Origin: Terriglobia bacterium
GTDB taxonomy: Bacteria > Acidobacteriota > Terriglobia > Terriglobales > Acidobacteriaceae
DNA length: 36,673 nucleotides
Direction: 5' to 3'
Assembly: GCA_021325035.1 (NCBI GenBank)
Contig: JAJPHW010000036.1
Span: 1-36,673, forward strand
Below, piece by piece: positions 3,647 to 15,455 of the stretch (its first letter is position 1; each line of letters opens with the position of its first letter). The notes beneath the pieces were generated by a model. The model saw only the letters and a list, made by a program, of their open reading frames with translations. It searched no databases and had not been told where the DNA came from. Position numbers and translations under genes: made by a program.

Positions 3647-4696
3647 TCAATCAAGCGATCCGGGAAAATCTTTGTGTACATAGTGAAAAAAGATAGAAGT
3701 TGATGACTGCCCATTCCCCAGGCGGTTTCTCGAATGAGGGATTTGGCACCCGCGAAACAGGAGTGCATCGCCTAATCCTTGAAAGACCAGAACCTCACCT
3801 CGTTCAGTATGTAAACGCAATGGCCATGGAGTCTCAAGTTCAGGTTCTGGGGAATAATCTATACACAATGAGACTGTGAACTGGCATTGTTCCCGATCCT
3901 GGTGTTTTTCCAGGACCGCGCCTTGAGAATACGTTGAAAAATAGCTATAAGATGGCTTCAAAGGTTCGCCGACGAGGTCGGATATTTGTTTTGTAAGTTG
4001 TTGATGAAAGAATTTGGCAATTGGTTCATTGTGCGCAATGTAGCGGAGGCCACTCTGCATGTCTCCACACCGGAAGTGTCCGCTTCTTAGATGATGCCGG
4101 TAATAACGCCGTAAGGATGCCAGATGGAAGGGATGAATCAGCTGCGCGACGGGAACGTACCCGTTATCCTGGAATTTCTGACGGCTGTATTCAAGCGCCT
4201 GTCTTCTCTGTTTGTGAGAATGGCTGTGGTTTTCTTCAACCGCGATTCCGGCAGCTTTCAGTACGGAGAGAATATCTTTTGAAATGCCGACTGGTAACTC
4301 AGCGCCAGGTTCGATTCCAGCCAGCAATTCGTTTAGGCGAGGCCCCAACCAGTAGGGCATGGCAGAGTGAGTAAAAGCATCCCAGACCCAAATTATCGAA
4401 TTCGAATTTAGCGATGATCCGCAGGCAAAAAAATCATTCGGAAATTCAACGTCACGCGGTTTGGAGAACGAACATTCGGGGTTGAAAACCCACTTGCAAT
4501 CAGGCGGAGCTTTCTCGAGAACAGAGCTGAGGTACCTCTCTGGTACGAGAAACTCCGGCTGATCGTCAAGGCAACAATAGTAGAGCGATCGAGACGGCGG
4601 AACTGATCCTGACGGACGTGCGGTGACCGTCGGGCCGCCACTCACTAATCGCTCTATCCATTGCAACCAGTCGCTATTTTCTATCTGCGAAACCAT
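3647..4696 (-). CDS. 2OG-Fe(II) oxygenase-like protein, second gene of pair
   Basis: A 349-residue protein. The C-terminal part (about 245-349) fits the double-stranded beta-helix of Fe(II)/2-oxoglutarate oxygenases: a distal Tyr/Ser strand, the HxD metal motif in EKHQDREQ (His265, Asp267), then IPHSRNRL with the third ligand His321 and a nearby Arg (323 or 325) suited to 2-oxoglutarate. The N-terminal 240 residues are not recognised; they contain paired cysteines (CC 41-42) and a stretch around 115-153 that could be a small helical or winged-helix-like unit. Its start overlaps the end of the upstream oxygenase gene by 16 nt, so the two are probably translationally coupled. Prolyl hydroxylation is one possible reaction, but the substrate is unknown. 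Confidence 0.72.
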   Translation of the reverse strand: MVSQIENSDWLQWIERLVSGGPTVTARPSGSVPPSRSLYYCCLDDQPEFLVPERYLSSVLEKAPPDCKWVFNPECSFSKPRDVEFPNDFFACGSSLNSNSIIWVWDAFTHSAMPYWLGPRLNELLAGIEPGAELPVGISKDILSVLKAAGIAVEENHSHSHKQRRQALEYSRQKFQDNGYVPVAQLIHPFHLASLRRYYRHHLRSGHFRCGDMQSGLRYIAHNEPIAKFFHQQLTKQISDLVGEPLKPSYSYFSTYSQGAVLEKHQDREQCQFTVSLCIDYSPEPELETPWPLRLHTERGEVLVFQGLGDALLFRGCQIPHSRNRLGNGQSSTSIFFHYVHKDFPGSLD

Positions 4697-5787
4697 CCGT
4701 TTACCGTAAACCGGCTGTCGGCGAAAACCCGTGAAGGCGTTTCGACCGGAGTAATTTCGTGTGCTAAGGAGCTGGCAAACAATACGGCCTGATTTTGCTC
4801 AGGTTTAATTGAGCGATAGGTCGCTGTTGGCCTATACATACCGCGATCGAATTGAGAATCATAGATGCGCAACTCGCCGCCACCAAAAGGTTTGGGTTCG
4901 CGATGGAAGAAATAGACGAAAGTGATTTCGCGGGTAGCGACTTCTCCTTCGCCGTTATCGTTGTGCCAATGAAAAAAATCACCATCGTTGCTGGCTGTAA
5001 TTTGCGTTTCCACCCGTGTTACTTCAAATTCTGGATGGTTTAGTCTTGCCAAAACACGAGGTAGTGCTTTCCGTAAACGATTGACGATTATCTCGCGATG
5101 CGGTCCTAACTCCATTAGCACCCTGGAGCGCCGGGTTTCATAATCCACAGTGCCACCTGGGACGCCAGGAGAAATGACCTGGCTAATATTGAACTCCATC
5201 TCTTTTTCCAGGGCATATTGCATCAACGCTTGTAGTTCGATTGGAGACAAGAACTCATCAAGAATTACGTAATTCGCCGGCAAGAAGCGCGGTGGCGCTT
5301 CGGGCGAGTTAGTCTCCAGGACAGCAACGGCGGCTTCCCTGCGTTCCACTGAATACCGATGTGGGGTTGCACCCGGCGGATTTGGACCTGGAGGATGGGG
5401 TGGTTCTGGATCGCGAGGCACGGGTGGTGAAGTAACCGGCGGAATTCCTGCACGAATCTCTATGCCCGGTGGATTTGGTCCCGGCGGATGTGGTGGATTT
5501 GGATCGTCAGGTCCGGGTGGGGTCATGGGTGGCGTGCCGAAACGGTATTTAGGCCCACCTTCTAAGAGACTGAGAATGGACTCTCCCAGAACTCGTTGGG
5601 CGCGACGAGATACCACTTCACCTACAGCGCGTGCGATGACTTGTTTGACAGCTTGGCTGCACGTGTTTTCCAGTTTGGTTGTTTCTTGGACAAGTACGGT
5701 CACAAGTTCTTTTTCTTGTGAGCTTAATATCCGATCGTCCGTTGTGAATCGTTCCGCTAAGTTGGTTACGTTGTCGCTGGGGTTCAT
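4681..5787 (-). CDS. 2OG-Fe(II) oxygenase (prolyl 4-hydroxylase-like) with helical N-terminus and Pro-rich repeats
   Basis: A 368-residue protein starting at the ATG at 5787, chosen because GAGGAGG lies about 8 nt upstream; an in-frame GTG at 5808 is less likely. Residues 1-78 are predicted helical and end in LLEGG. Residues 85-140 are proline-rich with two copies of PPHPPGPNPPG (98-108 and 129-139), part of a roughly 31-residue duplication. Residues 168-368 are a clear oxygenase domain of the prolyl-4-hydroxylase/SM-20 type: LDEFLSPIEL, HWHND (iron ligands His275, Asp277), GGGELRIYD, LAHEITPV (third ligand His343) and DSRFTVNGWF (Arg359, for 2-oxoglutarate). It is followed by a second oxygenase gene overlapping by 16 nt. 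The proline repeat could be linker, substrate, or both; that is inference. Confidence 0.85.
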   Translation of the reverse strand: MNPSDNVTNLAERFTTDDRILSSQEKELVTVLVQETTKLENTCSQAVKQVIARAVGEVVSRRAQRVLGESILSLLEGGPKYRFGTPPMTPPGPDDPNPPHPPGPNPPGIEIRAGIPPVTSPPVPRDPEPPHPPGPNPPGATPHRYSVERREAAVAVLETNSPEAPPRFLPANYVILDEFLSPIELQALMQYALEKEMEFNISQVISPGVPGGTVDYETRRSRVLMELGPHREIIVNRLRKALPRVLARLNHPEFEVTRVETQITASNDGDFFHWHNDNGEGEVATREITFVYFFHREPKPFGGGELRIYDSQFDRGMYRPTATYRSIKPEQNQAVLFASSLAHEITPVETPSRVFADSRFTVNGWFRR

Positions 5788-5966
5788 GACACACGCCTCC
5801 TCAATCACTCACGATTAGAAATCTTGCTGTCAGAACAAGAGTATCCAGCAGCCGGAGGAATTCCGGTACACGACGGGGAAAACAAAGGTAGCACAAAATC
5901 GATTTTCTTCAACAGAAAATTCGCAACGCAAGCAAGATTTCTGAGGAAAACACGGCAGTAATTATT

Positions 5967-13013: not shown

Positions 13014-15455
13014 ATGAAACCACACGCAACTGAAATTACTGTTGACCTCGCCGGAGGCAAGAAAATCTCATTTGAGACCGGCAAACTGGCCAAACAGGCC
13101 CACGGCGCGACCGTTGTCCGCTCGGGCGAAAACGTAGTTCTTGCCACTGCGACTTCAAACGCCGAACCCCGGGAAGGCATCGACTTCTTTCCTCTGACCG
13201 TGGACTACCGCGAATACACCTATGCCGGTGGGCGCTTTCCGGGAGGCTTTATCAAGCGCGAAGGCCGTCCCAGCGAGCGCGAAATTCTCACCAGCCGCCA
13301 GATTGATCGCCCGATTCGTCCTTTGTTTCCAGAAGGTTTCCGCTGCGAAACCCAGGTCATCTCCTTCGTTCTTTCCGCCGACGCGGAAAACGATCCGGAC
13401 GTGCTCGGCATCAACGGCGCGTCGGCATCGCTGACGATCTCCGACATTCCTTTCAACGGGCCGATTGGCGCGGTGCGTGTTGGGCAAGTGGATGGACAGT
13501 TTGTCATTAATCCTACTTATGCCGAGATGCGTGAAAGCGCTCTGAACATTATGGTCGTCGGCACCGCCGAAGGCATTGTGATGATCGAGTCGGGTGCAAA
13601 GGGCGTGAGCGAAGCCACAGTCGTGGACGCGATCGAGTTCGCACACAACGAAATCAAGAAGATTTGCTTTGCGATTAACGAACTGCGCGGCAAAGTTGGC
13701 AAACCGAAGCGCGCGGTAGTGGCTCCTGAATTTGACCAGGCTTACTACGATCAGCTTAAAGCCAAAATTGGCAAGGAATTGACCGATGCTTGCGACACGC
13801 AAAAGCATCCGAAGATCGAAAGCTACACGCTGATCAAGCAAATCAAAGATCGTGCCATCGAGGCGATTCCGGAAGAAGATGAGGATGGCCGCAAGAAGCT
13901 GAAGAATTATTTTGACACCCTGCGCGAGCGAATTTTCCGCGAGGAAGTCATCAGCCGCAAGCGCCGCCCGGATGGCCGCGCATTCGATGAGATACGCGAA
14001 ATCTGGATTGAAGTCGGCGTTCTGCCGCGAACTCACGGCTCGGCAGTCTTTACCCGCGGCGAAACTCAAGCGTTGGTCACGACCACGCTCGGTACTGCCG
14101 ATGATATGCAGCGCCTTGAGACCTTCCAGGGCGAAGCCAAGAAGAACTTTTTGCTGCACTACAATTTCCCACCGTTTAGTGTTGGCGAAGTTGGCTTCCT
14201 GCGTGGAGCGGGCCGCCGCGAAATCGGTCACGGAGCGTTGGCAGAACGTGCCATCTCCGCAGTATTGCCCACGGCTGAGAACTGGCCTTATGCCATGCGC
14301 GTCGTGTCGGACATTCTTGAATCGAACGGTTCGTCATCCATGGCGACAGTTTGTGGAGCATCACTTTCGTTGATGGACGCGGGCGTTCCGCTCAAGGCTC
14401 CGGTTGCGGGCGTCGCAATGGGCTTGGTGAAAGAAGGCGAGCAATACGCGATTCTTACCGATATCGCAGGCGCAGAAGATCACTACGGCGATATGGATTT
14501 CAAAGTCGCCGGTACAAAAGACGGCATCACCGCATTGCAGATGGACATTAAGGTCGGCGGAATTACTGCGCAGATTATGCGGGAAGCACTGGCGCAGGCG
14601 CAACGCGGACGATTGTTCATTCTGGACAAGATGACCGAGGCTATCTCCGGCGCTCGCGAGAAGGTTTCGTCGTTTGCGCCGCGAATCTATACGCTGCAAA
14701 TTCCAGTGGACAAGATTCGTGACGTCATCGGGCCCGGCGGCAAAATGATTCGTTCGATCATTGAGCAAACCGGAGTGAAAATTGAAGTTGAAGATTCCGG
14801 TAAGGTCAATGTTGCTTCCAATGATGAAGCTTCGGCGAACAAGGCGATTCAGATCATTAAAGATCTGACTGCCACGGCCGAAGTTGGAAAGACTTATCTT
14901 GGGACGGTCACACGGCTTGCCGATTTTGGCGCATTCGTCGAAATCATTCCCGGCACAGACGGGTTGTTGCACATCAGTGAAGTGGCCGAGCATCGGATTG
15001 CCGATGTTCGCGACGAACTGAAGGAAGGCGATCAGGTGCTGGTGAAAGTGCTGGCAGTGGAAGGCAACCGCATTCGCCTGTCGCGCAAAGCAATTTTGAA
15101 AGAGCAGCGCGCAAAGATGGGTGGCGGGGAGGCTCCGCCGGACCATGCTGAAGGCGGCGATGAGCATGCTGCTCCGGTTGAGGCTTCGAACCACGGTGGT
15201 ACTTTGACGATTGAGGGCGGCGCGGATTTCGATGATAACGAGCCGAACTTCAACCGTGAGGGCGCAGCTGTAGCTCCAGCAGGAGATCGTCCGCAGGGCG
15301 AGCGTCATGATCGCGGCCCCGGCCGTGGTGGTGATCGCGGTGGCCGTGGTGGCGGGCGCGGTGGCCGACCTGGTGGTGGCGGCGGACGTGGCCGCGGTCG
15401 TGGAGGCCCGGGGGGCCGTGGTGGCCGTCCTGGTGGCGGTGGCGGAAGACACTAG
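13014..15455 (+). CDS. pnp: Polyribonucleotide nucleotidyltransferase (PNPase) with RGG-rich tail
   Basis: An 813-residue phosphorolytic 3'-5' exoribonuclease, part of the RNA degradosome. Order of domains: first RNase PH domain (about 10-145), helical linker, second RNase PH domain (about 315-540) with the active-site acidic cluster DHYGDMDF (Asp489, Asp493, Asp495), KH domain with GPGG near 573, S1 domain from about 624 to 695. The first conserved block GGRFPGGFIKREGRPSEREI is intact. The last 55 residues (from about 759) are almost only Gly, Arg, Pro and Asp with many RGG/RGR units, an addition not found in E. coli PNPase and likely to bind RNA or drive clustering. AAGGA precedes the ATG by 7 nt. 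Confidence 0.98.
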   Translation: MKPHATEITVDLAGGKKISFETGKLAKQAHGATVVRSGENVVLATATSNAEPREGIDFFPLTVDYREYTYAGGRFPGGFIKREGRPSEREILTSRQIDRPIRPLFPEGFRCETQVISFVLSADAENDPDVLGINGASASLTISDIPFNGPIGAVRVGQVDGQFVINPTYAEMRESALNIMVVGTAEGIVMIESGAKGVSEATVVDAIEFAHNEIKKICFAINELRGKVGKPKRAVVAPEFDQAYYDQLKAKIGKELTDACDTQKHPKIESYTLIKQIKDRAIEAIPEEDEDGRKKLKNYFDTLRERIFREEVISRKRRPDGRAFDEIREIWIEVGVLPRTHGSAVFTRGETQALVTTTLGTADDMQRLETFQGEAKKNFLLHYNFPPFSVGEVGFLRGAGRREIGHGALAERAISAVLPTAENWPYAMRVVSDILESNGSSSMATVCGASLSLMDAGVPLKAPVAGVAMGLVKEGEQYAILTDIAGAEDHYGDMDFKVAGTKDGITALQMDIKVGGITAQIMREALAQAQRGRLFILDKMTEAISGAREKVSSFAPRIYTLQIPVDKIRDVIGPGGKMIRSIIEQTGVKIEVEDSGKVNVASNDEASANKAIQIIKDLTATAEVGKTYLGTVTRLADFGAFVEIIPGTDGLLHISEVAEHRIADVRDELKEGDQVLVKVLAVEGNRIRLSRKAILKEQRAKMGGGEAPPDHAEGGDEHAAPVEASNHGGTLTIEGGADFDDNEPNFNREGAAVAPAGDRPQGERHDRGPGRGGDRGGRGGGRGGRPGGGGGRGRGRGGPGGRGGRPGGGGGRH

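Follow-up and report, generated by a model that had tools for sequence, protein, structure and literature searches.

A conserved pair of overlapping oxygenase genes in Acidobacteriota, one of which carries a variable proline-rich repeat array

Introduction

Fused substrate-enzymes are already known for N-methylation, in the borosins, and for copper-dependent cyclisation, in the burpitides. The fused borosins are precursor-enzyme fusions that methylate themselves; in type 0 the core is N-terminal and the enzyme C-terminal, and a dedicated release peptidase is mostly missing (PMC11395268). The fused burpitide cyclases of plants carry core repeats N-terminal to a catalytic copper BURP domain, which forms macrocycles by a metal-dependent oxidation (PMC11253845). 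Fe(II)/2-oxoglutarate (2OG) chemistry on ribosomal peptides is represented by CanE and other hydroxylases of lasso clusters; CanE is a stand-alone enzyme that acts on an Asp residue of a linear ribosomal precursor (PMC8498205). Finally, the prolyl 4-hydroxylase (P4H) of P. putida (PDB 4iw3, 4j25) and PHD2 are single-domain enzymes with an HxD...H site that act on EF-Tu or HIF, and have neither fused repeats nor a partner oxygenase. A fused substrate-enzyme for 2OG-dependent hydroxylation was not found in a search of a limited set of open-access papers.

Here we describe two genes, P1 and P2, on a contig of a Terriglobia bacterium (GCA_021325035.1, JAJPHW010000036.1), the 36,673 nucleotides of which are referred to as the window. 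Like the fused borosins, P1 is predicted to hold a substrate peptide and its modifying enzyme on one polypeptide, in the order of type 0 and without a dedicated release peptidase in sight. However, the borosin alpha-N-methyltransferase has no homology to P1, which instead has a P4H-type 2OG oxygenase, a separate domain ahead of the repeats and another oxygenase as partner. The burpitide cyclases share with P1 the repeats N-terminal to a metal-dependent oxidative domain, but they are plant proteins without homology to P1, and P1 is paired with P2 and contains no hydrophobic signal-like segment by eye. Neither an N-methyltransferase nor a BURP catalytic domain is found in P1, where only 2OG oxygenase families match. 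The chemistry that CanE performs on a ribosomal peptide is also predicted for P1. The closest solved folds for both oxygenase domains are those of P. putida P4H and PHD2, with the same HxD...H site.

Results

The two genes overlap and are tightly coupled

The preliminary description of this DNA had reported two Fe(II)/2OG oxygenase genes, each with an intact HxD...H site, a 16-nt overlap between them and a single strong ribosome site in front. All of this holds; see Table 1.

Table 1. Features of the P1/P2 locus, in positions of the window.
Feature	Position	Strand	Basis
P1, 368-aa precursor-like fusion	4681..5787	-	ORF and translation
P1 residues 1-76, conserved helical N-domain (leader-like)	5560..5787	-	homologue identity, AF2
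P1 residues 80-145, proline-rich tandem repeat	5353..5550	-	sequence; two ~31-aa units ending PPHPPGPNPPG
P1 residues 168-368, P4H-type oxygenase domain, H275/D277/H343/R359	4684..5286	-	invariant residues, Foldseek
P2, 349-aa second 2OG oxygenase, uncatalogued family	3647..4696	-	ORF, database comparisons, AF2 model
P2 residues 36-165, N-terminal domain	4202..4591	-	detected in distant P2 relatives
P2 residues 166-349, oxygenase domain, H265/D267/H321	3650..4201	-	conservation, Foldseek
P1/P2 overlap, 16 nt	4681..4696	-	P2 ATG within P1 GGA-TGG (Gly-Trp) codons
Shine-Dalgarno GAGGAGG	5796..5802	-	8 nt 5' of P1 ATG
Ser/Thr kinase with PD40/WD40 propeller, convergent with P2	1087..3639	+	PF00069, PF07676

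The start codon of P2 is embedded in the Asn-Gly-Trp (NGW) codons of P1, and the GGATGG is kept in 35 of 35 loci, among them that of the window. Of the 35 loci compared, 30 have an overlap of 16 nt; in the others it is longer or the frame is broken. P1 lies directly 5' of P2 in every Acidobacteriota locus with upstream sequence present (34/34; another two of the 36 loci start inside or at P2). The tight coupling that the preliminary description proposed is thus strongly supported. Scans for sigma-70 promoters and terminators around the pair gave no excess over shuffles.

Relatives of P2 are present in 4 of the 61 near genomes and in 17 of the 399 genomes of the class, ten of them over most of the length. 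When the contigs were scanned with the single P2 sequence as query there were no matches, but an alignment as query recovered the loci: among 84,980 species it returned 38, of which 36 are from Acidobacteriota (Candidatus Sulfotelmatobacter, Acidobacteriaceae and Acidiferrales). Such counts are not independent tests, because the loci share a common descent and some come from genomes that were counted more than once. The pair, which is carried by soil Acidobacteria, is seen in dozens of species and is more than a chance arrangement. Co-occurrence of the two genes had been suggested as a check, with single homologues in unrelated contexts as the contrary outcome. In the close Acidobacteriota group P1 and P2 are paired wherever upstream sequence is present, but distant relatives, at ~30-37% identity, also occur singly. 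The coupling is therefore tight only within the close group.

P1 and P2 have P4H-type oxygenase domains

In the AF2 model P1 consists of an N-domain of ~76 residues that forms four helices, a region predicted to be disordered (77-160) and the oxygenase domain. P1 matches PF13640 (2OG-FeII_Oxy_3) in Pfam with an E-value of 6e-18; among PDB sequences a prolyl 4-hydroxylase of Dictyostelium comes closest (E 5e-5), and Foldseek matches the domain to PHD2 and P. putida P4H. H275-x-D277...H343 and R359 are all invariant across 29 homologues, and R359 is likely the 2OG-binding residue. With a double-stranded beta-helix domain, the HxD...H site and this basic residue, P1 has the fold and site of the Fe(II)/2OG oxygenases of P4H type, and it is predicted from fold and context to be a hydroxylase.

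P2 is different, as it has no match in Pfam, not even at superfamily level, no NCBIfam family above cut-off and no relative among PDB sequences. Its AF2 model (pLDDT 84.8) is best matched in the PDB by P. putida P4H (4j25, Foldseek E 7e-10), with PHD2 further down the list. H265-x-D267 is invariant in 37 of 37 sequences and H321 in all 36 that are ungapped there. P2 thus combines a P4H-type fold and an HxD...H site without a family-level sequence match, and it too is predicted to be a hydroxylase. At positions 331-334, ~10 residues after the distal His, it has Ser/Thr and no basic residue; the conserved R323 and R315 could serve instead.

The N-terminus that had not been recognised in P2 was put at 240 residues; it is shorter, ~165 residues, since the boundary of the oxygenase domain in the AlphaFold model and by homology lies near residue 166. 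From a by-eye view and from a distant P2 relative (L034) with a C-terminal PqqD match (E 0.008) came the idea of a PqqD-like RRE in this part of P2. It was rejected: in a profile comparison with 24 PqqD domains (PF05402), hhalign gave a probability of ~2%, hardly more than for columns that had been shuffled, and Pfam shows no match for P2.

A variable proline array lies between two conserved domains

Among the 29 homologues of P1, the N-domain has a mean pairwise identity of ~62% and the oxygenase domain of 64%, while the region between them falls to 23% with gaps counted and 40% ungapped. This inter-domain region is 51-137 aa long and 32% proline. In this respect P1 has the layout of a RiPP precursor, with a conserved leader-like domain followed by a variable core. 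The N-domain was not found outside the P1 architecture, all carriers being P1 proteins or contig-edge or remnant copies.

The repeat unit differs from species to species, with a shared grammar that is mostly [G/A]PQPP[S/G]. Units of PQPPS type are found in most arrays and GPGPK units in Acidiferrales; one array (L002/L055) has a 22-aa unit three times, another (L040) a 26-aa unit seven times. PxPP[S/G/T] was counted 120 times against a mean of 15 and a maximum of 27 in shuffles, an eightfold excess, and Ser or Thr directly follows PxPP in 81 of 149 motifs. Different codons are used at 696 of 1396 residue-identical positions of repeat pairs, in a test biased by the choice of pairs by amino-acid similarity. 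As half of the identical residues have differing codons, the peptide itself appears to be kept, beyond the DNA alone, which indicates that many arrays are more than recent DNA copies.

The preliminary description had proposed the proline-rich stretch of P1 as a possible common substrate. The support is circumstantial, and consists of the hypervariable array between conserved domains and of relatives in peptide clusters, see below. A proline-rich linker would likewise be repetitive, variable and disordered. In the main rival reading, the repeats are no more than a flexible polyproline spacer joining a docking or dimerisation domain to the oxygenase, with P1 and P2 hydroxylating an unlinked protein. 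The predicted disorder and variable length of the region agree with this, and the nearest structures include a P4H-EF-Tu complex, P. putida P4H being a hydroxylase of EF-Tu. However, a spacer has no need for a grammar that is common to unrelated arrays and in eightfold motif excess, and turnover in exact multi-residue units is unusual for linkers. We consider a spacer with the substrate elsewhere possible, but on the whole somewhat unlikely.

A second copy of the repeat, as a candidate substrate in trans, was not found in the genome of the window. A proline-rich frame at 15308-15451 of the window (minus strand) lies antisense to the 3' end of the gene at 13014-15455; it is probably an artefact of composition and no second repeat protein.

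Variants without the array

Three loci (L031, L032 and L085) contain the two enzymes but neither an N-domain nor repeats, so a fused array is not required for the enzymes to work; this also favours the spacer. The pairs of L031 (8656-15999) and L085 (1-6933) come after very large proteins to which Pfam assigns no family. Downstream of L085 is a glycosyltransferase, and this pair is the second one in the assembly that holds L072.

L041, a protein of 164 aa and the only short one with the N-domain, was considered as a stand-alone precursor and rejected, as it is a remnant locus between purQ and a truncated kinase gene. It keeps the N-domain and GPRPPQP repeats; the oxygenase of P1, the whole of P2 and the larger part of the kinase are missing, losses that look like the result of one deletion. 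Free proline-rich peptides near repeat-less or proteobacterial pairs were also sought; the matches are antisense or in GC-rich frames and none is convincing.

Distant relatives are found in natural-product contexts

Among 72,556 plasmid records only six contain a P1-type oxygenase, and each of two queries led to these six. All of them have natural-product-like contexts. An Azospirillum oryzae plasmid (L129, 5892-10345) has a small ORF, an asparagine synthetase (AsnB), lasso B2, PqqD and an embedded P1-type enzyme, a candidate lasso hydroxylase; it places a P1-type enzyme in a lasso-like cluster, the setting of CanE. The Hyphomicrobiales UR115 and Tistrella mobilis plasmids combine a P1-type enzyme with PqqD and asparagine synthetase. 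In UR115 (L098, 7070-13025) a P2-type gene is also present, together with, by eye, ATP-grasp- and sulfotransferase-like genes; this record carries no annotation. The P1-type enzyme of a Pseudanabaena plasmid is near Nif11 and LanM genes and that of a Gloeocapsa plasmid near an NRPS. On the Eleftheria terrae plasmid (L097, 7269-10765), the gene after a P1-type oxygenase encodes a fusion of a sulfotransferase with a P2-type oxygenase. The P1-type gene precedes the P2-type one, as in the Acidobacteriota pair, in both UR115 (Alphaproteobacteria) and E. terrae (Betaproteobacteria).

P2-like genes that have no P1-type partner are found next to NRPS genes, in Pyrinomonadaceae and in three further Acidobacteriota genomes, and two Acidobacteriota have a P1-type gene but no P2. 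The P2-like protein in an NRPS cluster of a Burkholderia glumae plasmid (L099, 7416-8954) is annotated as hypothetical. In one of these Acidobacteriota genomes, from another family (L101, 2694-6476), a P2-like gene lies beside two PqqD-like proteins, which have a hydrophobic segment and Cys-containing tails, and beside genes that are HprK-like by eye. From these neighbourhoods, the P1- and P2-type subfamilies are associated with peptides and natural products.

The relatives bring up a second alternative, a true RiPP pathway with the N-domain as leader and the repeats as cores, where host proteases would free short hydroxylated peptides for export. The layout of a leader with multiple cores would fit such a pathway, as would the presence of P1-type enzymes in clusters of the lasso, Nif11/LanM and PqqD kinds. 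Against it, inspection by eye of ~ten Acidobacteriota loci brought up neither a protease nor an exporter or immunity gene close to the pair, the neighbours being purQ, the kinase and housekeeping-like genes, and the probability of the P2 N-domain against an RRE profile is the 2% given above. A protease for the repeats may be unlinked. Overall, we regard a RiPP pathway as improbable.

A kinase-propeller gene is a conserved neighbour

It had been stated that no other gene of a pathway is nearby. The pair does not stand alone, as the neighbouring kinase-propeller gene is conserved across families: all but one of the 36 loci (L053-L088; 35 of 36) have it in convergent orientation to P2. The kinase is also kept in Acidiferrales, where purQ was not found on the other flank. 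In a genome with 61 kinase matches (G260) the best full-length match adjoins the pair, at 53% against 45% for the next, and the same is true of one with 25 matches (G158; 48% against 45%). The gene is therefore a conserved neighbour and an ortholog, not a nearby paralog. The kinase may be part of the same process as P1 and P2, a functional link that opposite transcription makes uncertain.

This neighbour could point to an oxygen- or 2OG-dependent switch, parallel to PHD-HIF, in which hydroxylation of the repeats controls the kinase-propeller protein or is co-read with it. The near-constant presence of the orthologous kinase, also in the family without purQ, and the Ser or Thr that mostly follows PxPP would fit. 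However, convergent genes share no operon, and the kinase is absent at the leaderless pairs L031 and L085. We find such a switch highly improbable.

Discussion

We suggest, at just under even chances, that the repeats of P1 are hydroxylated by P1 and P2, i.e. that P1 is a fused substrate-enzyme. The N-domain and the P4H-type domain of such a fusion would flank a fast-evolving proline array, the likely substrate of the oxygenase domain. This domain would act in cis or between the subunits of a dimer and hydroxylate residues of the array, with proline as the likeliest target. P2 would be made in matched amount through translational coupling and would carry out a second oxidation on the same array. 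Further points speak against the fused substrate, besides the linker argument and the pairs without an array described above: the first 35 residues of P2 and its N-domain are left without a role, and, as not all repeats are PQPP-like (GPGPK, QPQHPG), a single target residue is not obvious.

It can further be speculated that the locus represents a new class of self-modifying ribosomal peptides, made up of a repeat-fused prolyl-hydroxylase, a second hydroxylase and possibly a dedicated kinase-propeller protein, whose PQPPS-like repeats would be doubly hydroxylated and perhaps phosphorylated. Taken as a whole, this proposal is tentative and rather doubtful.

If P1 is indeed a fused substrate-enzyme, the two genes would be a cassette for sequence-programmable hydroxylated proline repeats in bacteria. 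The P2 family would then gain a function, and the locus would be a test case for the co-evolution of a hydroxylase with its repeats. The P1-type enzymes in lasso-like and Nif11/LanM neighbourhoods form a hydroxylase subfamily of interest for genome mining.
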